Shown here one piece after another: positions 13,757 to 64,000 of a DNA stretch of 64,000 nucleotides. Source of the DNA: Rubellimicrobium thermophilum DSM 16684 (GTDB lineage Bacteria > Pseudomonadota > Alphaproteobacteria > Rhodobacterales > Rhodobacteraceae). Under the pieces are notes generated by a model. It was not told the DNA's origin. It was given only the letters and a program-made list of their open reading frames with translations, and ran no database searches. Position 1 is the first letter of the stretch; the number at the start of each line of letters is the position of its first letter. Both the position numbers and the translations under genes were made by a program. The stretch covers positions 212,447-276,446 of the forward strand of contig NZ_KE557322.1 in NCBI RefSeq assembly GCF_000442315.1, read 5' to 3'.

Positions 13757-15692
13757 TCAGGCCCGGCGGCTGATCGCCGTCACCCCCAGAAGCGTCAGCA
13801 CCCGGGCCTCGATGCCGGCCGCGTCAAGCCCTGCCTCGGCATGCATCTCGGCCGGGCTGGCCTGCTCCTGGAAGCGGTCGGGGAGAGTGAGGCTGCGGAA
13901 CTTCAGGCCGCCATCGAAGACCCCCTCTTCGGCCAGAAGATGCGCAACATGCGAGCCGAAGCCCCCCACCGCCCCTTCCTCGATCGTCAGCAGGGCCTCG
14001 TGCGTGGCGGCCAGATGCAGGATCAGATCGCGGTCGAGCGGCTTGGCAAAGCGGGCATCGGCGACCGTGGGCCGGATGCCGCGCGCGGCCAGCGCCTCGG
14101 CGGCCTGCAGCGCCGCCCCGAGCCGGGTGCCGTAGGACAAAAGGGCGACGCCCGACCCCTCGCGCACCACGCGGCCCCGCCCGATCTCGAGCGGGGGGGC
14201 GTCCCAGTCGATCTCGACCCCGACGCCTTCGCCGCGCGGAAAGCGGAAGGCGATGGGGCCGGCATCATGGGCGGCGGCCGTGGCGACCATCCGCGCCAGC
14301 TCGGCCTCGTCCGCGGCGGCCATGACCGTGAAGCCCGGCAGATTCGACAGATAGGCCACGTCGAAGGCGCCGGCATGCGTCGCCCCGTCCGCCCCCACCA
14401 GACCGGCCCGGTCGATGGCAAAGCGCACCGGCAGGCCCTGGATGGCCACGTCATGCACGACCTGGTCATAGCCGCGCTGCAGGAAGGTCGAATAGATCGC
14501 GCAGAAGGGGCGCAGCCCCCCCGCGGCCATGGCGGCGCAGAAGGTCACGGCATGCTGTTCGGCAATGCCGACATCGAAGCAGCGCCCCGGAAAGCGTTCG
14601 GCGAATTTCGACAGGCCCGTCCCGTCGGGCATGGCCGCGGTGACAGCGACGATGCGGGGGTCCCGCGCGGCGGCGCGGATCAGCGCCTCGGCGAAGACCG
14701 CCGTGTAGGACGGCGCATTGGAGGGCGCCTTGACCTGCTCCCCTGTCACCACATCGAAGCGGTTCACCCCATGGCCCTTGTCGCGGGCGCGTTCGGCGGG
14801 GGCATAGCCCTTGCCCTTCTTCGTCAGGACATGGATCAGCACCGGCCCGTCGGCGCGCGCCCGCACCGTGCGCAACACGGCCAGGAGACTGTCCATGTCA
14901 TGCCCGTCGATCGGGCCGACATAGGAAAAGCCCAGCTCGTCGAAGAGCGTGCCATGCCCGATGGCAAGATGCTTGAGCGCGTCCTTGGCCCGCCGGGCCC
15001 CTTCGCGCAGGGGAGGGGGCAGAAGATGGGCCGCGGCCTTGGCGGCGGCCTTCAGGTCCTGGAAGGGCGCCCCCGCATAGAGGCGCGAGAGATAGGCCGA
15101 CATCGCCCCCACCGGGGGGGCGATCGACATCTCGTTGTCGTTGAGGATCACGAAGAGCCGTCCGCCCCAGTGACCGGCATTGTTGAGCGCCTCATAGGCC
15201 TGGCCGGCGCTGATGGCGCCATCGCCGATCACCGCGATGCAGTCGCCGATGCCATGGCCGTCGGCCGGCTCTCCCCCCAGATCGCGTGCCGCCGCATAGC
15301 CCAGCGCCGCCGAGACAGAGGTCGAGGAATGGGCCGCGCCGAAGGGATCGTAGACGCTCTCGCTGCGCTTGGTGAAGCCGGACAGCCCCCCCTTCTGGCG
15401 CAGGGTGCGGATGCGGTCGCGTCGCCCGGTGAGGATCTTGTGGGGATAGGCCTGATGTCCGACATCCCAGATCAGCCGGTCGCGCGGCGTGTCGAACACG
15501 GCATGGAGCGCGACGGTCAGCTCCACCACGCCCAGGCCCGCCCCCAGACTGCCCCCCCGTGACCGAGACGGCCGAGATCGTCTCGGCCCGCAGCTCCTCC
15601 GCGAGCTGCTTCAGATCGACATCCGGCAGGCGGCGCAGGTCGGCTGGCTGGCGGATGCGGTCGAGCAGCGGGGTCGGGGGGGGTGTCGTCAT
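13757..15692 (-). CDS. dxs: 1-deoxy-D-xylulose-5-phosphate synthase (frameshifted)
   Basis: Thiamine-diphosphate enzyme condensing pyruvate and glyceraldehyde-3-phosphate, the first step of the MEP isoprenoid pathway. The N-terminal frame (from ATG 15692) encodes [15 protein letters not shown] up to VSVTGG. The rest, from [17 protein letters not shown] onward, is in another frame. The break is the C7 run at 15552-15558. Removing one base restores [11 protein letters not shown] and gives a 644-residue protein, the normal length. The TPP motif [18 protein letters not shown] and the transketolase C-terminal domain are intact. It is last in an operon with ispA and xseB, and precursor supply fits ispA. 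Homopolymer sequencing error is the likeliest cause. Confidence 0.92.
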
Positions 15693-21812: not shown

Positions 21813-24472
21813 ATGGCGGACGGATCGCAGCGGCGCGGAACACAGGGGCAGGGGGCAGGCGGGGACGGTGCGACCCCGATGATGGCGCAGTATCTGGCGC
21901 TCAAGGCCCGGCATCCCGATGCGCTCCTGTTCTATCGCATGGGCGACTTCTACGAGCTGTTCTTCGAGGATGCCGAACGGGCGGCGGCAGCGCTCGACAT
22001 CGCGTTGACGAAGCGCGGTCAGCATCAGGGCCGCGATGTGCCGATGTGCGGGGTGCCCGTGGACCGGGCCGAGGGCTATCTGCTGTCCCTGATCCGGCAG
22101 GGCTTCCGCGTCGCGGTCGCCGAACAGATGGAGGATCCGGCCGAGGCCCGCCGCCGCGGCTCCCGGGCGTTGCTGCGGCGCGAGGTCGTCCGCCTTGTCA
22201 CCCCCGGCACCCTGACCGAGGAGGGCCTGCTGGAGGCGCGCAGCGCCAACCGTCTGGCCGCCTGGGTGCGGGTGGGGGGCGATGGCGCGCTGGCCTGGGC
22301 CGACATTTCCACCGGCGAGTTCCGCGCCGCCCCCTGTGTGCCGGACGCGCTGCCGGCGCTGCTGGCCCGGCTGGCCCCGCGCGAGGTGCTGATGGCCGAG
22401 GAGGAGGAGCAGGGCAGCGCCGGCCGCACCGCGCGCGAGGCCGGGGCGGCCGTCACCCCGGTGACGATCGACCTGCGCGGAGCGGCGCGGCGGGTCTGCG
22501 ACTGGTTCGGCCTGGCCACGCTCGATGGGCTGGGCGCCTTCGGCCGGGCCGAGACGGCCGCGCTGGCCGCGATCCTCTCCTATCTCGCTCTCACCCAGCG
22601 CGAGGCGCGGCCCCGTCTCGACCCCCCCTCGCGCGAGGCGACGGGCGAGACGATGATTCTCGATCCGGCGACCTGCGCCTCGCTCGAGATCCTGCGCGGA
22701 TCGGGCGGCGGACGGGCCGGATCGCTGCTGGCCTGCATCGACCGCACCCTGACGCCGCCGGGGGGGCGTCTGCTGGAGGCGCGCCTCGCCGCCCCGTCCT
22801 GCCGGCTCGATCGCCTCGCCCGCCGTCACGAGGCGGTGGCCCATCTGCTCGAGGATGCCCCCCTGCGGCAGGCCCTGCGCGAGGCGCTGAAGGGGGCCGG
22901 CGATCCCGAGCGCGCCCTCGGGCGGCTGGCGCCGGGGCGGGGCGGGCCGCGCGATCTGGGGGCGCTGCGGGCCGCTTTGCGGGCGGGGGCGCGCCTGCGC
23001 GCCCTTCTGGGCGAGGGGGGGCTGCCCGCCGGGCTCGAGGCGGCGCGGGCCGCCCTGGAGGACCCGGATCTCGCCGCGCTGGCCGCCCGGCTCGAGGCGG
23101 CGCTGACCGAGGATCTCCCCCTCCAGGCCCGCGACGGGGGCTTCGTGCGGGGCGGCTTCGATCCCGATCTCGATGCCGCACGGGCCCTGCGCGACGACGG
23201 GCGGGCCGTGATCGCAGCGATGCAGGCGGATTACGTCCAGGCCACGGGAATCCCCTCGCTCAAGATCCGCCACAACGGCTCGCTGGGCTATGTCGTCGAG
23301 GTCACCCCTGCCCAGGCGGCCCGGCTCACCCGGCCGCCGCATGATGCCGTCTTCCGCCATCGCCAGACGACCGCCAGCGCGGTGCGGTTCGGCACCGATG
23401 CCCTGGCGCAGACCGAGGCGCGGATGCTCTCGGCCGCCGAGGAGGCGCTGTCGCGCGAGATGGCCATCTTTGCCGCCCTGCGCGAGGAGGCGCTGGCCGC
23501 GGCCCCTGCGCTGGCCCGCCTCGCCGGGGCGGTGGCGCGGATCGATGTCGCCGCCGCCTGGGCGGAGCTCGCCGCTGAAGGGGGCTGGACGCGGCCGCGC
23601 CTCGATGCCTCGCGCGGGTTCTGCGTTGCGGGGGCTGGCATCCCGTGGTGGCCGCCCATCGCCGCCGCGAGGGCCAGCCTTTCGTCGCCAATGACTGCGA
23701 CCTCAGCGAGCGGCCGCTGCTGCTCGTGACGGGGCCCAACATGGGCGGCAAGAGCACCTATCTGCGCCAGCAGGGGCTGATCGCGGTGCTGGCACAGGCG
23801 GGCGGCTTCGTCCCCGCCGCCTCCTGCGAGATGGGCCTGGTCAGCCGCCTGTTCAGCCGCGTCGGCGCCGCCGACGACATTGGGCGTGGGCGGTCCACCT
23901 TCATGGTCGAGATGGTCGAGACCGCCGCCATCCTCAACGGCGCCGATGACCGCGCGCTGGTCCTGCTCGACGAGATCGGGCGCGGCACGGCGACCTGGGA
24001 CGGGCTTGCGATCGCCTGGGCGACGCTCGAACATTTGGAAGGCGTGATCGGCTGCCGCACGCTCTTTGCGACGCATTATCACGAGCTGGCGGGTCTGGCC
24101 GCCCGCCTGCCCGGTGCGGGCAATGTCCATGTCGCGGCGACCGAATGGGAAGGCCGCCTCATCTTCCTGCACGAGGTCCGCGAAGGGGCGGCCGACCGCA
24201 GCTGGGGGGTTCAGGTGGCCCGTCTGGCCGGACTGCCACCGCGCGTGGTGGCCCGTGCGAAGGCGGTGCTGCGCGCTCTTGAGGCGCGGGCACGCGAAGG
24301 CGGACCCCGCGCGCTCGAGGATGAGCTGCCCCTCTTTGCCAGCGCCCCCCCGCCCGAGGCGCCTGTCCCCTCGGCGCTGGAGGAACGCCTGCGGGCCCTC
24401 GATCCCGATGCGCTCAGCCCGCGCGAGGCGCTCGAGGCACTTTATGCGCTGAAGGGGCTCCTGGACGGCTGA
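21813..24472 (+). CDS. mutS: DNA mismatch repair protein MutS (frameshifted)
   Basis: Mismatch-recognition ATPase that starts methyl-independent or MutL-dependent repair. The N-terminal frame (to about base 23630) holds the mismatch-binding domain with [13 protein letters not shown] (Phe-Tyr-Glu contact motif), the connector, core and clamp. The second frame carries the ATPase: Walker [10 protein letters not shown] (about 23731-23757), [14 protein letters not shown] and FATHYHEL. The break lies in the G5 run at 23630-23634. Adding one G restores A-G-G-W-H-P-V-V and gives 886 residues, the normal length. Both halves are fully conserved, so a base-call error is likelier than gene loss. The start at 21813 is reasonable; a perfect parS follows the stop. 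Confidence 0.94.
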
Positions 24473-32475: not shown

Positions 32476-33675
32476 ATGTCCAGCATTCTCACCAATACCA
32501 GCGCGATGGTCGCGCTCCAGACCCTCAAGGGGATCAATGCGAATCTGGCCAGGGTTCAGGACCAGATCTCGACCGGCAAGTCCGTCGCCACGGCCAAGGA
32601 CAATGCGGCCGTCTGGTCGATCTCGAAGGTCATGGAAAGCGATGTCCAGAGCTTCAAGGGCATCTCCGATTCGCTCTCGCTCGGCCAGTCCACCGTAAGC
32701 GTGGCGCGCAAGGCGTCGGAAACGGTGACGGATCTGCTGACGCAGATGAAGACGAAGATCGTCGCCGCGCAGGAGGAGAATGTCGATCGCGCCAAGATCC
32801 AGGCGGATGTGGCGGCGCTGCGCGATCAGATCGCCTCGGTTGTGGGGGCGGCGCAGTTCAACGGGCTCAACCTTGTGAACGGCTCGCGCAGCTCGGTCGA
32901 TTTCCTGTCCTCGCTGGATCGCTCGGGCAGCACGGTGACGGCCTCCTCGATCACCGTGGCGGCGCATGACCTGTCGATCGGGGCCTATGCGGCGAAGGCG
33001 GCCTTCTCTGCGGGGACCGGCGTGACCGCGGCGCAGGATGCCCAGGCCTTCAATCTCGATGCCGGGGCCTCTGAGACGATCACCATCGATGCCGGTGCCG
33101 GCTTTGTGGCGGGGGACAAGATCAGCATTCGCATCGGCAACCGTCAGGCGAGCTATACGATCACGGCGGAGGACGCCGCTTCGACGACGCCGGCCGACAT
33201 CGTTGCGGTGGGCCTCAAATCGGCGATCGAGACGCTGGGCATCGACGGGCTGACGGTGGACTATGACAGCGGCACGCCGGGGCAGCTGACGCTCAACAAT
33301 GGCGGCACGCGCGATCTGGCCGTGTCGGCCCAGTTCCAGAATGCCGGTTCGGGCGGTCTGGGCGCGCTGGGGGGCATCGATGTCTCGACCGGGGCCGGGG
33401 CGGCCGCGGCCCTCGGGGTCATCGATGGGCTGATCGACACGGCGGTTGCCGCGGCGGCGGATTTCGGTTCGGCCCAGGGGCGGATCGAAAGCCAGGCCGA
33501 CTTCGTCAGCAAGCTCAGCGATGCGCTGCGCACCGGGATCGGCTCGATGGTGGACGCCGACATGGAGGAGGCCTCGGCCCGCCTCCAGGCGCTGCAGGTG
33601 CAACAGCAGCTCGGCGTGCAGGCCCTGTCGATCGCCAATCAGGCGCCGCAGTCGATCCTGTCGCTGTTCCGTTGA
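32476..33675 (+). CDS. fliC: Flagellin
   Basis: Structural subunit of the flagellar filament, 399 residues. Conserved D0/D1 helices lie at both ends: MSSILTNTSAMVALQTLKGI, QISTGKSVATAKDNAAVWSI, DVAALRDQIASVVGAAQFNG at the N-terminus, and RIESQADFVSKLSDALRTGI, QQQLGVQALSIANQAPQSIL at the C-terminus. The surface-exposed middle (about residues 155-305) is beta-rich with many Ser/Thr and could carry glycans. The ending ILSLFR is typical of alphaproteobacterial flagellins. The leader holds a CtrA-like box and two hairpins. flaF and flbT follow and control flagellin output in related species. A single flagellin gene is visible. Confidence 0.97.
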   Translation: MSSILTNTSAMVALQTLKGINANLARVQDQISTGKSVATAKDNAAVWSISKVMESDVQSFKGISDSLSLGQSTVSVARKASETVTDLLTQMKTKIVAAQEENVDRAKIQADVAALRDQIASVVGAAQFNGLNLVNGSRSSVDFLSSLDRSGSTVTASSITVAAHDLSIGAYAAKAAFSAGTGVTAAQDAQAFNLDAGASETITIDAGAGFVAGDKISIRIGNRQASYTITAEDAASTTPADIVAVGLKSAIETLGIDGLTVDYDSGTPGQLTLNNGGTRDLAVSAQFQNAGSGGLGALGGIDVSTGAGAAAALGVIDGLIDTAVAAAADFGSAQGRIESQADFVSKLSDALRTGIGSMVDADMEEASARLQALQVQQQLGVQALSIANQAPQSILSLFR

Positions 33676-54850: not shown

Positions 54851-55948
54851 CTACTGCACCACGAATTCCGCATGCAGCGCCCCGGCGGCACGGATCGACT
54901 TGAGGATGTCGATCATGTCCATCGGCGCCACGCCCAGAGCGTTGAGCCCCGCCACCACGTCCGACAGCGTCGTGCCATCCGACAGTTCCACAAGACCGCC
55001 ACGGTCCTGTTCGATCGCGGCTTCGGAGCGGGGGACGACGACGGTCTCACCGGGGGAGAAGGGATTGGGCTGAACGACAAGGGGGGCTTCCTCGACCCGC
55101 AGGGTCAGACCCCCCTGGCTGACCGCGACACGGGAGATGCGCACCCCTTCGCCCATCACGATGGTGCCCGACCGCTGATCCACCACGACACGAGCGCGGG
55201 CCTCCGGCTCGATCAGGAGCCCCTCGAGCCGGGCGAGCGCATGGGCGGGCGAGGGCGCCCCCGTCGCCCCGATATCCACCGTGACAGTCCCCGCATCCTG
55301 CATCCGGGCCACGCTAGCCCCGAAGGCTGCGTTGACCGTGGCCTCGATCCGGGCCGCGGTGGTGAAATCCGGCTCGCGCAGGGCAAGGCGCACCTGATCC
55401 AGCGTGGCGAAGTCGAAATCCACCTCCCGCTCCACGGTGGCGCCGGCAGGGATCGTGCCGGCCGTCGGCACCCCCTGGGTGACGCGCGCCGCCTCGCCCT
55501 CGGCGGTCACGCCGCCGGCGATGACACTGCCCTGGGCCACGGCATAGATCGCCCCGTCCGCAGCCCGGAGCGGCGTCATCACCAGCGTGCCGCCGCGCAG
55601 CGAGGAGGCATCGCCGATCGCACTGACCGTGACATCCAACGTGCTGCCCGCGCGCGCAAAGGGCGGAAGCTGTGCCGTCACCAGGACCGCGGCGACGTTG
55701 CGCGCCCGGATCGCCTCGCCGCCCACGGCGATGCCCAGCCGTTCGAGCACGTCGATCATGATCTCTTCGGTGAAGGGGGAATTGCGCAGCCCATCCCCCG
55801 TGCCGTCAAGGCCGACGACAAGGCCATAGCCCAGCAGGTCATTGCTGCGGACGCCGTCGAATTCGACCAGATCCTTGAGGCGGACAGGGGCGGCGGCGGC
55901 CGGCAGGGCGGTGGCAAGCAGCAGCGCGGCAAGAAGCGGACGGATCAT
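54851..55948 (-). CDS. flgI: Flagellar P-ring protein FlgI
   Basis: Periplasmic P-ring subunit around the rod, 365 residues with a Sec signal peptide (MIRPLLAALLLATALPAAAA). Motifs: RLKDLVEFDGVRSNDLLGYG, LVVGLDGTGDGLRNSPFTEE, NVAAVLVTAQLPPFARAGST, LDVTVSAIGDASSLRGGTLV and the C-terminal GLNALGVAPMDMIDILKSIR, all strongly conserved. It is the last gene of the flgE-flgK-flgL-flgI operon, overlapping flgL as ATGA. FlgA, its chaperone, is encoded at 39.8 kb. The 199-bp gap to fliP holds only GC-rich inverted repeats. Confidence 0.97.
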   Translation of the reverse strand: MIRPLLAALLLATALPAAAAPVRLKDLVEFDGVRSNDLLGYGLVVGLDGTGDGLRNSPFTEEIMIDVLERLGIAVGGEAIRARNVAAVLVTAQLPPFARAGSTLDVTVSAIGDASSLRGGTLVMTPLRAADGAIYAVAQGSVIAGGVTAEGEAARVTQGVPTAGTIPAGATVEREVDFDFATLDQVRLALREPDFTTAARIEATVNAAFGASVARMQDAGTVTVDIGATGAPSPAHALARLEGLLIEPEARARVVVDQRSGTIVMGEGVRISRVAVSQGGLTLRVEEAPLVVQPNPFSPGETVVVPRSEAAIEQDRGGLVELSDGTTLSDVVAGLNALGVAPMDMIDILKSIRAAGALHAEFVVQ

Positions 55949-56932
55949 CGCAGATGGTTCACCAGCGAGAGGGAGGACAGGCGCTGCACCGCCTCGTAAT
56001 GAGTCTCGAGCCGGGTGCGCAGCGCCTCCAGGGTGGAGGCGCTCTCGTAGGGATCGGCAGCGATCATCTCCTGCCGCAGGATGCCCCAGGCCGAGGCGCG
56101 GGCCGCGTGCCGGGCGGTGGCGGCCTCGGCCCGGGCCTCTGATTCGCCGATCCCGGCCCGCAGGCGGGTCAACGCATCGCCGGAGGCCAGCAGGCCATCG
56201 CGGGCACGGGTCAGCAGGGCACGCCCCTCCCCCTCGGGCAGGTCGGCGGCCAGCGCGCCCATCGCGGTGGCCTTGAGCAGGGCCCGCAAGGCAGGATCAT
56301 CCGCACGAGGCAGGATGACGGTCTCTGCATCGTCGATTCCACGCGAGAGCGAGGCCGAGGCCCCGAGATACCCTTCCGTCGCAAAGCCCCCGGACGGACT
56401 GTCGAACCAGTCGTCGAGCACGCTGGCCACCCCGGCAGCCGTCGTCTGCCCCGCGATGGCGCTGCGCAGCGCGGCAAGCAGCGTATCGGCCTCGGCGAGG
56501 GCGGGCCCATCCGTCGCGGTTCCGGCGAACAGACGCCCCTTCGCCGAGGCGCGCATTCAGCCCCGACAGGATGCTGCGGAAGGCGGTTTCCGCAGCCGGC
56601 GCATCGGCGGCGGGATCGGGGCCCGCAGGCCCCGAGGCGAGCAGCCGTCCAAGAAGCCCCTCGCGCGCTTCGGCCGCCTTGTCGAGCGCTGCCCCCATCG
56701 CCGCAAGGCGCATCCCGGCCTCGCGTGCGGCAAGCCCCCAGGCCTCTGCCCGTTCGATACGACGGTCGAGATCGGCCAGCGGACCCGTATCGCCGCGCAG
56801 GGCCCGTACAGGATCGGCCACCTGCCCGGTGGACAGCTCCTGCGCGGCGAGGGCCAGACGGGCGCGCAGATCCGCATTGTGGCGCTGGCTGGCAAAGAGG
56901 GCGGCACGGTCGCCCAAGGCGGCAAGGGTCAT
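55945..56932 (-). CDS. flgL: Hook-filament junction protein FlgL (frameshifted)
   Basis: Second hook-filament adapter (HAP3), a flagellin-like protein. The first frame begins MTLAALGDRAALFASQRHNA and contains RLALAAQELSTGQVADPVRA, the flagellin-type N-terminal helix, up to ILSGLNARLGEG. The second frame resumes RLFAGTATDGPALAEADTLL and ends in the C-terminal helix EALRTRLETHYEAVQRLSSL. The join is the C4 run at 56536-56539 (one base extra). Corrected length is 328 residues, normal for the family. It lies three bases after flgK and overlaps flgI. Confidence 0.9.
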
Positions 56933-59774: not shown

Positions 59775-60625
59775 TCAGCGTGCGGGAAAGCGGCGCAGCA
59801 GGGTGATTTCCACCCGGTCGTTGCGCGGGGCCGAAGGGTCTGCGGTGGCGGGGCTGCGGTCGGCATGGCCGGTGACGCGGGCCATGCGGGAGGCGGCCAA
59901 CCCCGCCTGTTCGAGCGCCAGGCGGGTCCGCTGGGCCCGCGCGATCGAGCGATCCCAGGGCGCCGTCCCCATCGCCATGACGGGGCGGGCCGGGACATGG
60001 GCCGCCACCGCAACGGGATTCGTCACCATCCCGGCCGCATGCGCAATCGCCGCCAGCAGGGTCAGCGTCACGGGGCGCGGCTCGGCCCCTTCGCCTTCCC
60101 ACAGCGGCGCGCCCGGGCGGGCGAAGATCTCGATGGTCAGGCCTTCGTCGGTCAGGCGGGTGATGACATGGCGCAGCGCCTCCTCCTCGAGCAGCGATTC
60201 GCCGCCCCGTCCAAGCAGGACATCCTCGACCTCCATCAAGGCGGCCGTCTCGGCGGCGGCTGCGGGATCGACCGCCCCGTTCTCCTCGGGAAAGCCGGCA
60301 TCGCCCAGAAGGCCCGGCGCGGCGCTGCGCCCGTCCGCGGCCAGCACATCCCCCGCAATGGGCGAATCGCCCCCGAACATCCCATCCCCCCCGCGGAGAC
60401 GCGGCTGATCGGCACATCGGGGGCGAAATAGTCCGCCAGCCCCTTCTTCTGCTGTTCGGTGGTGGCATTGAGAAGCCACATGAGCAGGAAGAAGGCCATC
60501 ATCGCGGTCACGAAATCGGCATAGGCCACCTTCCAGGCGCCGCCGTGATGGGCCCCTTCCCCCCCGCCGCGGCGGCGCTTCACGATCAGCGTGGCGGGTG
60601 TCTGCCCCTTCTTCTGTTCGGCCAT
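59775..60625 (-). CDS. motB: Flagellar motor stator protein MotB (frameshifted)
   Basis: Stator partner of MotA that anchors to peptidoglycan and carries protons. The first frame has a basic N-terminus, GGAWKVAYADFVTAMMAFFL with the essential proton-binding Asp37, and NATTEQQKKGLADYFAPDVP. The second frame carries the OmpA-like domain: LTIEIFARPGAPLW, RAQRTRLALEQAGLAASRMA, VTGHADRSPATADPSAPRND and RVEITLLRRF. The join needs one extra base in the C7 run at 60386-60392. Corrected length is 283 residues. It stands apart from motA by 10 kb and follows the glycan-module operon at a 69-bp gap. Confidence 0.92.
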
Positions 60626-60694
60626 TGCGCATCCCTCCGGCCCGGTCTGCGGCGGTGATGGCCGGTCAGGGATGAGCAGGGCGTTAATGCCGCC

Positions 60695-61476
60695 TCATTC
60701 GATGGAAAAGTCACGGCGGCGCCATATTTCGTCCGGCCCGCAGAACTCCACGAGCTCATGGCCCGCGGCCTGCATGATCCGGGCGATGGCGGGCGAGCCG
60801 CGGTTGTTCTCGATCGCCCAGACGCCGATGCGATGCTGCGCGAAGGGAAAACCGGCCAGAACGGCCTCTTCCCCGCCTCGATGTCGAGCGAGACGAAATG
60901 GGGATGAGGAAGGCCCGATTCGGTCAGCAGGCGGGAGAGGCTGCGGGTCTGGACGCGCAAGCGCCGCTCGCGATGGCGGGGATCGGCCCGCACGCGGGCC
61001 AGGATCGCCGGGTCATAGGTGGCGACAAGGCCCGACATCTGGGTATAGCCTTCGGCCACCTCGAGGAACTCGGCCTCGCCATCCTCCGCGGCCACCGCAT
61101 AGGGCAGGCAGGGACAGCGGCGGGCGGCGCGGGCCCTTTCGAGATGGAGGGGAACCGGTTCGACGAGAATCCCGGTCCAGAAGCGGCGCGTTTCGAGAAA
61201 CAGCGTGTTGGAGCCCGTCACCCCGTCATGGCCGCCGATATCGGCAAAGGTCAGATGCGTGCGTCCGCCGAAGAGACGGTCCACCACCGCATCCTGACCG
61301 GCCTGCGAGCTGTAGGCATAGGCCGGGTCGAGCATCCGCGCGATCCCGTGCAGGCGGCGGACCAGCTCGCCCCGCCGCCGGCTGCGATCCTGGGCGAGCT
61401 GGGCGAGCAGATCCGCCCGCATGGCGAGCAGTTCGGCCCGCACCCGGGCGAGGCGCGCATCGATGCCATCGCTCAT
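60695..61476 (-). CDS. FkbM family methyltransferase (frameshifted)
   Basis: SAM-dependent O-methyltransferase-like protein of the FkbM type, usually acting on sugars or surface glycans. In the 260 residues after correction: a charged N-terminal helix, AYSSQAGQDAVVDRLFG, FADIGGHDGVTGSNTLFLE (the SAM-binding loop D-x-G), EPVPLHLERARAARRC, LPHPHFVSLDIEAG and then EEAVLAGFPF and IGVWAIENN in a second frame. One base is missing in the CCCC run at 60871-60874. The corrected frame ends RRRDFSIE with TGA at 60695. The start overlaps the DUF6165 stop (ATGA). Confidence 0.85.
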
Positions 61477-61882
61477 GGGGCACCTGGGGCATCGGGGGGG
61501 GCGTAGGCGGTGTAGGACTTCTCCTCCACCAGGGGCGAGCCCGTCGCCTCGTTGATGGCGCGCTTGATCGCCGCCCGGCGGTCGTTCTGCTGATAAACCG
61601 ACCGGGCGAGCGCCACGAAGCCCGGCCCGAAATCCCCTGCGGCCTCGCAGGCGCGGATGGCATCCTCGATGTCCCAGAGCGATTCGTTGACCGCCCGCAG
61701 CGCCTCGAGAAGGGGTTCGAGGGCCGGATCGGGCGGGATCGCTTCGGCGGCCACCTCCTCGAGCGCGGCCAGCTCGCGCCGGACATTGGCAAGGCGGGCG
61801 GGATCGGCGATCCGCTCGGCCTGATGCGCAGGATGGCGATCTTGTCGAGAAGCTCGCCGGCAGAGACAGGCACGCGGATCAT
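61473..61882 (-). CDS. DUF6165 family protein (frameshifted)
   Basis: About 136 residues. The N-terminal MIRVPVSAGELLDKIAILRI is in one frame and the rest, AERIADPARLANVRRELAAL and NESLWDIEDAIRACEAAGD and ARSVYQQNDRRAAIKRAINE, in another. Together they fit the DUF6165 pattern (vSxGEl.DKlTIL.IK.eri.). One base is missing near 61821-61826. These small helical proteins accompany glycosyltransferases and polysaccharide genes, but no biochemical function is known. It is flanked by ATGA overlaps with both the FkbM and the TPR-glycosyltransferase genes, so it is part of one coupled operon. Confidence 0.78.
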
Positions 61883-63282
61883 GGGCGCCGCCCGTCTGTA
61901 CGTGCCCTCGCCAGCGGCTCGAGCGCGGCGCGGACACGGGCCAGGACGCCCGCCCAGTCGCGCGGCCTGTCCTGCCGCCACAGCCGCATGGAGGGATACC
62001 AGGGGGTCGTCTCCCCCTCCTGTCCCCAGAGCCAGAAGGCATCCCAGTGGAGCAGCGTCCAGCAGGGCAGCCCGAGCGAACCGGCCAGATGCGCTGTCAC
62101 CGTGCAGGTGGTCAGCACGAGGTCCATCCCCTCCATCAGGGCGGCGCAATCGGCGAAATCGCGGTCATGGGAGCCCAGATCGGGGATCAGGGCGGCCGTG
62201 CCGTCGGCGCGGAAGCCCTCGATCGCCGGACCCTTGTAGAGCGAGAGCATCTGCAGGCCGGGAATGTCGAGCAGCGCATGCAGGTCGCGATGGGAGAGCG
62301 AGCGGAAGGCATTGGCCCGATAGGTGACCGATCCCGTCCAGACGACGCCGACGCGGAAGCGGTCGCGGAAGGGGGCGAGGAGGGCGCGGGCGCGGGCACG
62401 GGCATCCTCGGGGATCGTCAGGCGGACCGGCGGCGGGATGGTGCCGCTGCGGGAGAAATGCAGCAGCGGCAGATCCATCATGTCGGCATAGCAGTCGAAG
62501 CCGCCGGGCGGGGCGCCGGGGCCGGTCCAGTCTGCCCCTTCGAGGCGCTGCATCAGCCGCGCGAGCGGCGCTTCGGTCAGAAGAGACACATGGGCGGGGG
62601 CCGCCGCGCGCAGGGCGGGCAGGAAGCGGGCAAAGCAGAGCGTGTCTCCGAAGCCCTGTTCGGGCAGCACGAGGATCCTGCGGCCGGTCAGATCGCCGCC
62701 GTCCCATTTCGGGGCACGCAGCGCGCGCGGCTTCAGCTCTCCTGTCCGCCAGCGGGCCGCATAGTGGCGGAACCCCTGCGCCCAATCGCCGGCCTTGAGC
62801 CGCGTCAGGGCCAGCTGGATCTCGAGTTCGGCATCCTCGGGAAAGCGGCGGCGGGCCTGCTCCAGAAGGCGGGTTCCCTCCTCCAGCCGGCCCAGCGCGC
62901 GCAGGGCCTTGGCGGCCATGGCGGGCTGGGTCGGGTCGTCCGGCATCTCCCGCATCAGGGCCAGCCGCAGTGCGAGCGACCGCTCATGCGCGCCCAGATC
63001 GTTGAGGACATTGGCCAGGTTGTTGCGCACCCCCCGCGACCGCGGATCGAGGGCGAAGGCGCGTTCCTGCGCGGCGAGAGCCAGATCATGCCGCCCCTGC
63101 TGGCGCAGCAGGGCCCCGAGATTGGTCCAGACCCCCGCATCCTTCGGCCCCCGGGCGAGAAAGGCGGCATAGCGGCCCAGCGCCTCGTCCAGGCGGCCGG
63201 CCCGATGCGCGGCGATTGCGGCCTCGCGCAGGGCGGCGGGACTGGTGAGGGGGGCGCCCTCCGGAGCGGGCAGGATCGTCAT
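61879..63282 (-). CDS. TPR-repeat protein with a glycosyltransferase-like C-terminal domain
   Basis: A 467-residue soluble protein. The N-terminal half contains at least three TPR units (AIAAHRAGRLDEALGRYAAF; AGVWTNLGALLRQQGRHDLA; RSRGVRNNLANVLNDLGAHE). The C-terminal half has RILVLPEQGFGDTLCFARFL, VGVVWTGSVTYRANAFRSLS and DLVLTTCTVTAHLAGSLGLP, a pattern common to TPR-fused glycosyltransferase (GT9/GT41-like) proteins. The substrate is unknown. ATG 63282 overlaps the stop of the upstream gene, and its own stop overlaps the DUF6165 gene. Next to a flagellar cluster it may modify flagellin or the surface, but that is inference. Confidence 0.85.
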   Translation of the reverse strand: MTILPAPEGAPLTSPAALREAAIAAHRAGRLDEALGRYAAFLARGPKDAGVWTNLGALLRQQGRHDLALAAQERAFALDPRSRGVRNNLANVLNDLGAHERSLALRLALMREMPDDPTQPAMAAKALRALGRLEEGTRLLEQARRRFPEDAELEIQLALTRLKAGDWAQGFRHYAARWRTGELKPRALRAPKWDGGDLTGRRILVLPEQGFGDTLCFARFLPALRAAAPAHVSLLTEAPLARLMQRLEGADWTGPGAPPGGFDCYADMMDLPLLHFSRSGTIPPPVRLTIPEDARARARALLAPFRDRFRVGVVWTGSVTYRANAFRSLSHRDLHALLDIPGLQMLSLYKGPAIEGFRADGTAALIPDLGSHDRDFADCAALMEGMDLVLTTCTVTAHLAGSLGLPCWTLLHWDAFWLWGQEGETTPWYPSMRLWRQDRPRDWAGVLARVRAALEPLARARTDGRRP

Positions 63283-63650
63283 TCGGCCGCGCGCGACGTG
63301 CGGCGAACCGGCGAGAGGAGGCGTGCCGGCCGCCGCGCCTCTGCCGCCTCGAAGAGGGAGAAGGTCTGGTTGACGTAATTCACCGCGCCCGAGATCAGAT
63401 CCATGTAATCGCGCAATTCCGGCGTCACCTCGGTCTCGACCATGGCCACGCCGCGATCGGGGGGGACCGTCTCGAACAGGACATAGAACAGGGGATCGCC
63501 GCGGTTCAGGCGGATGGGCTTGTCCGGTTCGTGCCATTCGAAGGCCCACATCAGCGGGCGGGGCCAGACATCGATGGGAAAGCGGCCGCCGAAGATCGTG
63601 CCCGGCAGGGGATCGGGGCGGTAATGCATGAAGGGGGCGACCTGGCTCAT
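63279..63650 (-). CDS. Conserved protein of the glycan module, C-terminal part or separate gene
   Basis: 123 residues starting MSQVAPFMHYRPDPLPGTIF and containing RFPIDVWPRPLMWAFEWHEP, FYVLFETVPPDRG and DLISGAVNYVNQTFSLFEAA, with a basic C-terminus. I recall Rhodobacteraceae proteins in which this segment follows directly on the sequence encoded just upstream (ending ..FVADEPV), so the two may be one gene split by a stop and a frame change around 63650-63654. Removing a single base would not clear the TAG, so two genes cannot be excluded. The function is unknown. It overlaps the TPR-glycosyltransferase gene as ATGA. Confidence 0.65.
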   Translation of the reverse strand: MSQVAPFMHYRPDPLPGTIFGGRFPIDVWPRPLMWAFEWHEPDKPIRLNRGDPLFYVLFETVPPDRGVAMVETEVTPELRDYMDLISGAVNYVNQTFSLFEAAEARRPARLLSPVRRTSRAAE

Positions 63651-63651
63651 C

Positions 63652-64000
63652 CTAGACCGGCTCGTCGGCGACGAAGAGATAGGGCAGGGCGAGCTGGATC
63701 GTCGGGACGCCGGGATGGCGCCATTCCACCTCGTTCGTGAGATGGAGCTTCTCGCCCAGCTTGGAGGCGCGGATGGCCGAGGCCTCTCCGGCGAGGTTGC
63801 GCAGCACCGGCCGGCCCTGCCCGTCGCGGGCGAAGCCGACATGGATGTCGAAGGGGCAGCGGATCAGGAAATGGCGCGATTCGAGATTGATGACCGCCGG
63901 ACAGCGCGAGGCGGACTTGGCATGGCGGCGGTTGAGATCGGCCGAGCGGACGCGCTCGGGCGGGGCATAGATGATGCCGCCCTTCTGTTCCGTCAGGCAC
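63652..64000 (-). CDS. Conserved protein of the glycan module (runs off right edge)
   Basis: A reading frame entering from the right edge and ending in TAG at 63652-63654. The visible 115 residues include EQKGGIIYAPPERVRSADLN, CPAVINLESRHFLIRCPFDI, DGQGRPVLRNLAGEASAIRA and VEWRHPGVPTIQLALPYLFV. The start lies beyond the window. The chain probably continues into the following gene at 63650, one base downstream, as a single protein of about 240 residues or more in other genomes as I recall them. No domain function is known; it resembles conserved unknowns found near FkbM methyltransferases. Confidence 0.65.
   Translation of the reverse strand, partial: CLTEQKGGIIYAPPERVRSADLNRRHAKSASRCPAVINLESRHFLIRCPFDIHVGFARDGQGRPVLRNLAGEASAIRASKLGEKLHLTNEVEWRHPGVPTIQLALPYLFVADEPV

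Follow-up and report, generated by a model that had tools for sequence, protein, structure and literature searches.

The module and its genes

The stretch analysed here, called the window throughout, is 64,000 nucleotides of the Rubellimicrobium thermophilum DSM 16684 genome (Rhodobacteraceae; contig NZ_KE557322.1, positions 212,447 to 276,446), and it ends in a module of four genes at the edge of a flagellar cluster: a gene of a family without known function (here called A), a glycosyltransferase with a TPR half (TPR-GT), a DUF6165 gene and an FkbM-family methyltransferase gene. The module's place beside this flagellum is genuine and conserved, and in many bacteria of sea and soil it stands at the edge of the flagellar cluster. 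It appears to be a unit for protein glycosylation, of the same kind as FlmG of Caulobacter and with a different sugar donor in most genomes. The features, in window coordinates and with lengths in amino acids (aa), are:

63279..64083 (the window ends at 64000), minus strand: gene A, about 265 aa in relatives, split by a frameshift near 63651 into an N-terminal part (63652-64083) and a C-terminal part (63279-63650), as read from the translated frames and relatives
61879..63282, minus strand: TPR-GT, 467 aa, intact, with a TPR half and a GT9/OGT-like GT-B half
61473..61882, minus strand: DUF6165 gene, frame broken near 61822; PF19662 at E 8.1e-7 on the C part; intact in relatives
60695..61476, minus strand: FkbM-family methyltransferase gene (fkbM), frame broken near 60873; PF05050 at E 2.3e-11 on the N part; intact in relatives
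60626..60694, minus strand: gap of 69 bp between fkbM and motB
59775..60625, minus strand: motB, first of the neighbouring set motB-flgE-flgK-flgL-flgI, frame broken; MotB_plug at E 2.7e-20; one end of a deletion that recurs in relatives lies at 60524, where the Ala codon of GGAWKVA ends
32476..33675, plus strand: fliC, flagellin, 399 aa; PF00669 at E 8e-27; its start codon is the other end of that deletion in relatives

The original prediction had TPR-GT, DUF6165 and FkbM genes following one another with ATGA overlaps just upstream of motB, and the translated frames and Pfam confirm this arrangement, with 69 bp between fkbM and motB. Among the window proteins, TPR-GT has a Pfam TPR match at E 1.8e-8, the DUF6165 C part lies above the PF19662 gathering score (29.3 bits vs 27), and the FkbM N part lies above the cut-off of PF05050 (Methyltransf_21; 44.6 bits vs 22.7); a relative's FkbM scores 60.7 bits with PF05050 and 41.7 with TIGR01444 (cut-off 37.7). 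What had been taken for an unknown conserved gene pair ahead of them is instead the single gene A, split by a frameshift, with 83 of its bases lying outside the window, up to position 64083 in window numbering: the first A frame ends ...VADEPV-TAG and the second begins one base later (MSQVAPF...). In all eight first-fetched relatives with A, TPR-GT and DUF6165 (seven of them also with FkbM), A is one open frame of 261-275 aa, and two separate unknown genes were ruled out on the strength of these relatives.

The DUF6165, FkbM, MotB and FlgL frames are broken in the window as well (translated frames, read by eye). When 22 filtered window genes were compared with same-genus open reading frames (ORFs) of at least 150 aa, a frame change was found in three, A, FkbM and MotB, DUF6165 being too short for this comparison. 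One possibility is that the module in this genome is a decaying remnant, since breaks fall in three of its four genes (A, DUF6165, FkbM) and in MotB and FlgL, with none in 19 of the 22 comparable genes. We consider this improbable, and the breaks are better read as assembly indel errors, because dxs is broken too, at about 15.5 kb (15529-15690, by eye) and some 45 kb from the module, TPR-GT is intact, relatives in Rubellimicrobium and elsewhere carry an intact A-TPR-GT-DUF6165-FkbM, and the assembly (10 contigs) is 88.85% complete. The dxs gene is as a rule essential, and given its break decay was set aside, short of proof. By eye, mutS (23650-23730) and flgL (55945-56932) also appear frame-broken.

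Linkage to flagellar genes

Loci were located by a TPR-GT alignment scan of genome contigs, taking the best 80 of 94 relatives plus one further locus (L039, genome G089), 81 in all; where single loci were read more closely, neighbouring genes were delimited by a simple ORF picker and named by eye. A script sorted them into 46 in which motB follows the module (F loci), 10 in which motB is joined to fliC (D loci), four in which flgE is joined to fliC (J loci) and 21 others, one of which, L078, was later found to be D. The J loci keep motB and flgE, so that motB follows the module in 50 of the 81. All four module genes are present in 42 of the 46 F loci, which makes the gene set more than chance. 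Behind motB in the F loci come flgE (44), flgK (43) and flgI (41), some contigs ending early, and the fkbM-motB gap measures 29-96 bp in 43 of the 46 F and J loci where both genes are present. Exact 4-bp overlaps occur at 41 of 59 DUF6165/fkbM joints, 29 of 70 TPR-GT/DUF6165 joints and 11 of 61 A/TPR-GT joints. Across 43 loci, pairwise TPR-GT distances correlate with those of MotB (r 0.70), FlgE (0.65) and FlgK (0.75), shuffles giving at most 0.19; module and flagellar genes thus seem to have descended together.

A survey of 149 family genomes, one per genus, found matches to TPR-GT in 22, the FkbM type in 23, DUF6165 in 20 (above the profile cut-off), A in 28, and flagellin and MotB in 127 each. 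Modules, called by a close TPR-GT (E 1e-170 or better) together with a close FkbM (E 1e-98 or better), number 13, and all but two (G120 and G124) also have A. In 10 of the 13 the module ends at most 3.5 kb from a MotB match; for G171, whose contig breaks inside DUF6165, the distance was taken from the FkbM end. The other three are G013 and G089, where the flagellar core is deleted beside the module, and G120, whose module contig carries motB at a distance of 58 kb and flagellin at 31 kb. Whether the module tracks flagellar genes across genomes had been put forward as a check, and by position it does (10 of 13 near motB, 50 of 81 followed by it, r 0.65-0.75).

DUF6165 has a wider range. Within the family, 19 of its 21 places lie at most 1.5 kb from a TPR-GT match, the exceptions being G129 and an additional place in G089. 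Across the whole class, 50 of 385 genomes have it, including some as small as 0.8-1.7 Mb. Of 30 class loci read, a TPR-GT was detectable with the Rubellimicrobium query in eight, about five others have a GT9-like ORF (by eye), and one has an adjoining flagellin. DUF6165 thus looks to be a common companion of GT9-type transferases, whether or not flagella are present. In L136 (G200, of another family of the class) the DUF6165 gene lies directly upstream of a flagellin gene.

Promoter-like patterns in the relatives' loci were written after viewing the sequences, so their counts are descriptive. A TTTGA-GTTAA-like element precedes motB in 18 of 50 loci (background 0.5%) and A in one of 60. A TTTGAC...GATTC-like, sigma70-like element precedes A in 14 of the 32 loci without a GT4 gene ahead and in two of the 28 with one, and motB in none of 50 (background 0.2%). 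These differences suggest two transcription units, one for the module and one beginning with motB. They bear on the proposal that the module has a role in modifying a stator or basal-body component, or in motility control via the motB operon, rather than in glycosylating the filament. That motB follows the module in 46 of the 81 loci and in the four J loci as well would fit such a role, but the separate promoter-like element between fkbM and motB (18 of 50 loci against a 0.5% background) argues the other way, and MotB would not be a typical GT-B substrate; we regard the proposal as very improbable.

Upstream of A on the window contig lie a Gfo/Idh/MocA oxidoreductase gene and a ThuA-domain gene, which also precede A in all eight first-fetched relatives and in 23 of the 46 F loci (within the stretch available). 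A GT4 glycosyltransferase gene stands between the Gfo gene and A in five of the eight relatives, and none does so in the window genome.

Folds of TPR-GT and A

The model of TPR-GT (copy of the relative L023) has a mean predicted local distance difference test score (pLDDT) of 86.5 and a predicted template modelling score (pTM) of 0.84, and consists of a TPR half and a GT-B half. Foldseek placed SPINDLY and OGT at the top and the GT9 structure 3tov 13th. In VIA comparisons the model aligns with 3tov at Z 18.6 (255 residues, root-mean-square deviation (rmsd) 3.7 A) and with heptosyltransferase II (1psw) at Z 16.7 (252 residues, 3.7 A), and the TPR half with OGT (6eou) at Z 17.0. The catalytic half of the model thus has the GT-B fold (3tov, Z 18.6), and the Pfam GT9 match, at E 0.0075, is below the cut-off.

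For A, a Pfam/NCBIfam search with an intact relative gave no match at E 0.1, and a sequence search of solved structures nothing better than E 0.97. The model (L023; pLDDT 79.9, pTM 0.78) appears to have a dUTPase-like core, with a best VIA Z of 8.1 (rmsd 2.5, 109 residues; Foldseek E 2.9e-3). This likeness is one of fold at most, Z values of about 8 being common for chance arrangements, and does not amount to an identification of A as a dUTPase; A has no Pfam match. A does have remote phage relatives (structure library E 4.5e-13; phrog_17480 at E 4.5e-9 over A residues 56-232), and relatives occur in 10 Synechococcus phage records, as hypothetical proteins. Stretches around three of these were read, in phages S-T4, S-H38 and S-CAM3 (L174-L176): a UDP-glucose 4-epimerase gene adjoins the A relative in one, and in the other two the A relative lies among tRNAs a few kb from psbA. 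In other family members A also stands alone, away from TPR-GT, and in G156 (the genome of locus L099) it is frame-broken.

Recurrent loss of the flagellar core beside the module

Eleven loci (L039, L056, L058, L077, L078, L084, L090, L100, L102, L108 and L130) share the D arrangement: motB is intact up to its GGAWKVA codons, and there meets the fliC start codon, in antisense, and fliC-leader-like sequence. The joint's fliC side was compared with a real fliC in some genomes and judged by likeness of the leader in the others. The core that lies between motB and fliC in genomes with F loci, about 28 kb in the window genome, is gone. In a census of the motB site, the normal codon came next in 51 loci and the joint in 11. 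In the 10 D loci tested flgJ, fliK and flgD remain, as does flgN where recognisable; L056 is also without fkbM, and in G013 (L090) flagellin, FlhA and MotB are on a different contig. In the J loci (L068, L086, L091 and L099) the end of flgE is joined to fliC at about codon 46, in antisense.

On a TPR-GT tree of 64 loci, made by a quick method and with 10 D loci labelled (L078 unlabelled), the D state needs nine changes, at least eight of them forced by well-supported branches, and J needs four; the D and J labels show no more clustering than they do after shuffling. Between the near-twins L099 (J) and L100 (D) the fliC leader is almost identical right up to the joint, which implies that the D joint of L100 arose in place. 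That the deletion recurs at fixed points suggests a site-specific cause. An extended direct repeat at the motB and fliC ends found no support as that cause, local alignment in five genomes being no better than background. An 11-bp repeat at the flgE/fliC junction was likewise not borne out: across five flagellated genomes the two ends share at most 6-8 bp in a row, and this stretch is the junction's CCAGAC in the window genome (G000) and G088 alone.

One extension of these observations would make the module the fixed border of a flagellar cassette, whose core, from motB GGAWKVA to the fliC start, is removed by base-precise and probably enzyme-driven excision, separately in many Rhodobacteraceae lineages, the module being kept and modifying another surface protein; as a whole this seems to us unlikely. 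No description of the module or of the motB/fliC deletion was found in the open-licence literature searched, which is no proof that they are undescribed. Recurrent core loss provides near-relatives with and without the core and with the same module, which would allow a direct test of the target.

What does the module modify?

The reading that we favour, tentatively and as somewhat short of probable, is that of an FlmG-type module for cytoplasmic protein glycosylation whose target is a flagellar or another exported protein. What the analysis shows is which genes the module has, their order and overlaps, the classes of fold in the models and the link to motB; for its enzymatic activity, partners, substrate and sugar we infer the following scheme. 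The TPR half of TPR-GT would bind an export substrate, and the GT9/OGT-like half would pass on to it a sugar taken from a nucleotide donor; DUF6165 may be a small helper subunit of TPR-GT; FkbM would methylate the sugar; and A, with its dUTPase-like core, may be a binding or accessory protein. With a flagellum next door, the likeliest substrates would be exported flagellar proteins, flagellin or hook-type. If the scheme is right, cytoplasmic protein glycosylation of the FlmG kind extends to a donor other than nonulosonic acid, and both DUF6165 and the A family would acquire a function.

In most of these genomes a nonulosonic acid is unlikely to be the donor. No match to NeuB (PF03102) was found in the window genome (88.85% complete) or in the five other Rubellimicrobium genomes searched; among 20 module or TPR-GT genomes tested, seven have a match and 13 do not. 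Flagellin glycosylation with nonulosonic acid was rejected for this reason.

Is flagellin the target? The original prediction held that the module could glycosylate and methylate it, and this is upheld as far as the FlmG and FkbM precedents and the linkage to motB go, and fails as a complete account in genomes that keep the module and have no flagellin match. Several observations weigh against a purely flagellar role. All four module genes are present in G001 (R. arenae, 99% complete) and in G089 (100% complete), neither of which gave a flagellin or FlhA match, so the module is not confined to genomes with a flagellum. G159 and G109 have TPR-GT and DUF6165 and no flagellin or FlhA match (G109 does have a MotB match). 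L107 (Cognatiyoonia sediminum) keeps TPR-GT, DUF6165 and FkbM, no flagellar gene was found in the locus, to which the search was limited, and its fkbM abuts an ORF reading as ubiB (by eye). In L115-L119, TPR-GT and DUF6165 occur with no flagellar gene found in the locus. Conversely, most family genomes with a flagellin match are without the module. The module also appears to be preceded by its own sigma70-like element, unlike motB.

Other genomes add detail. G007 (R. roseum) has no flagellin match and no FkbM, and its motB is cut at the module; fliP, fliF, motA, flhA and flhB of this genome lie on another contig (L171, contig C55), away from the module. G003 is also without flagellin and FlhA matches, but is 85% complete. 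A flagellin match occurs in 12 of the 13 module genomes (in G156 at E 9.5e-8 only) vs 127 of the 149 family genomes, and because so many have one anyway, the module is no guide to whether flagellin is present.

The Ser/Thr-rich central domain of flagellin had been singled out as the possible acceptor, and here the prediction found no support. The Ser plus Thr fraction of the flagellin middle is 0.219 in 10 module genomes and 0.227 in 14 without (p 0.50), where the module group includes G124 (without A), the hand-chosen group without a TPR-GT match includes G033 and G085 (with a lone A), and G004 and G120 (partial modules) were set aside beforehand, so that G120 and G124 were treated unequally. 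A Ser/Thr-rich flagellin was accordingly dropped as a signature of the module.

The alternative that the module modifies a non-flagellar surface or secreted product, such as a polysaccharide, an RTX-type or another exported protein, and owes its place at the flagellar border to ancient linkage, is possible, though on balance doubtful. It would account for the genomes without flagellin or FlhA matches, for L107 and for the module's own sigma70-like element. In G120, moreover, TPR-GT, DUF6165 and FkbM lie beside a sugar-nucleotide epimerase/dehydratase-like ORF (by eye), 58 kb from motB, and in L109, L124 (Tropicimonas) and L048 (G109; by eye) TPR-GT lies beside genes with RTX-like repeats. The flagellum-poor pair L099/L100 has low dN/dS (TPR-GT 0.092, DUF6165 0.036, FkbM 0.035), with dS near saturation for several of the pairs compared. 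Yet flgD, also kept in this pair, is as constrained as the module (0.083), so the losses may be too recent for any relaxed selection to show; and linkage to motB across many genera appears far tighter than random gene order would give. As for what the original prediction named as its refutation, the four genes together were not seen mainly beside capsule or lipopolysaccharide loci in non-motile species; the TPR-GT and DUF6165 pair does occur away from flagellar genes, in L115-L119, G159 and G109. For a flagellar target, then, position speaks in favour, and survival of the module without a flagellin match suggests that the flagellum need not be the only one.

TPR-GT or A lies beside RTX-like-repeat genes in L109, L124, L048 and L036 (G075), and the repeat proteins may be other glycosylation targets.

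Comparison with known systems

In fold, the catalytic half of the TPR-GT model resembles GT9 enzymes (heptosyltransferases) and the GT41 enzymes OGT and SPINDLY, and OGT is alike in the TPR half too; TPR-GT differs in that its Pfam GT9 match lies below the cut-off (E 0.0075). Gene A resembles phrog_17480, a group of phage proteins without known function, over residues 56-232 (E 4.5e-9), but the phage copies are remote, with 24-28% identity to the L037 copy.

Enterobacterial flagellin glycosylation islands likewise combine a glycosyltransferase with FkbM beside flagellar genes, FkbM genes being present in eight island types among 67 strains (PMC4875605). These islands vary greatly and sit in the fliDC/AZ region, whereas the module described here is conserved, lies at motB and includes A and DUF6165.

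The closest parallel is the flagellin O-glycosyltransferase FlmG of Caulobacter crescentus (CCNA_01524), which, like TPR-GT, has an N-terminal TPR part and a C-terminal GT-B part; the likeness is one of domain layout. Its TPR part interacts with flagellins and, provided that pseudaminic acid is made, FlmG is both required and sufficient for flagellin modification (PMC7591256). FlmG has flagellins as its substrates and the module here lies with flagellar genes, both in Alphaproteobacteria, and a DUF6165 match is present in the Caulobacter vibrioides control genome. The two differ in length (596 aa for FlmG, 467 aa for TPR-GT) and apparently in donor: FlmG uses pseudaminic acid made via NeuB, and no NeuB match turned up in the window genome or in 13 of the 20 genomes tested.

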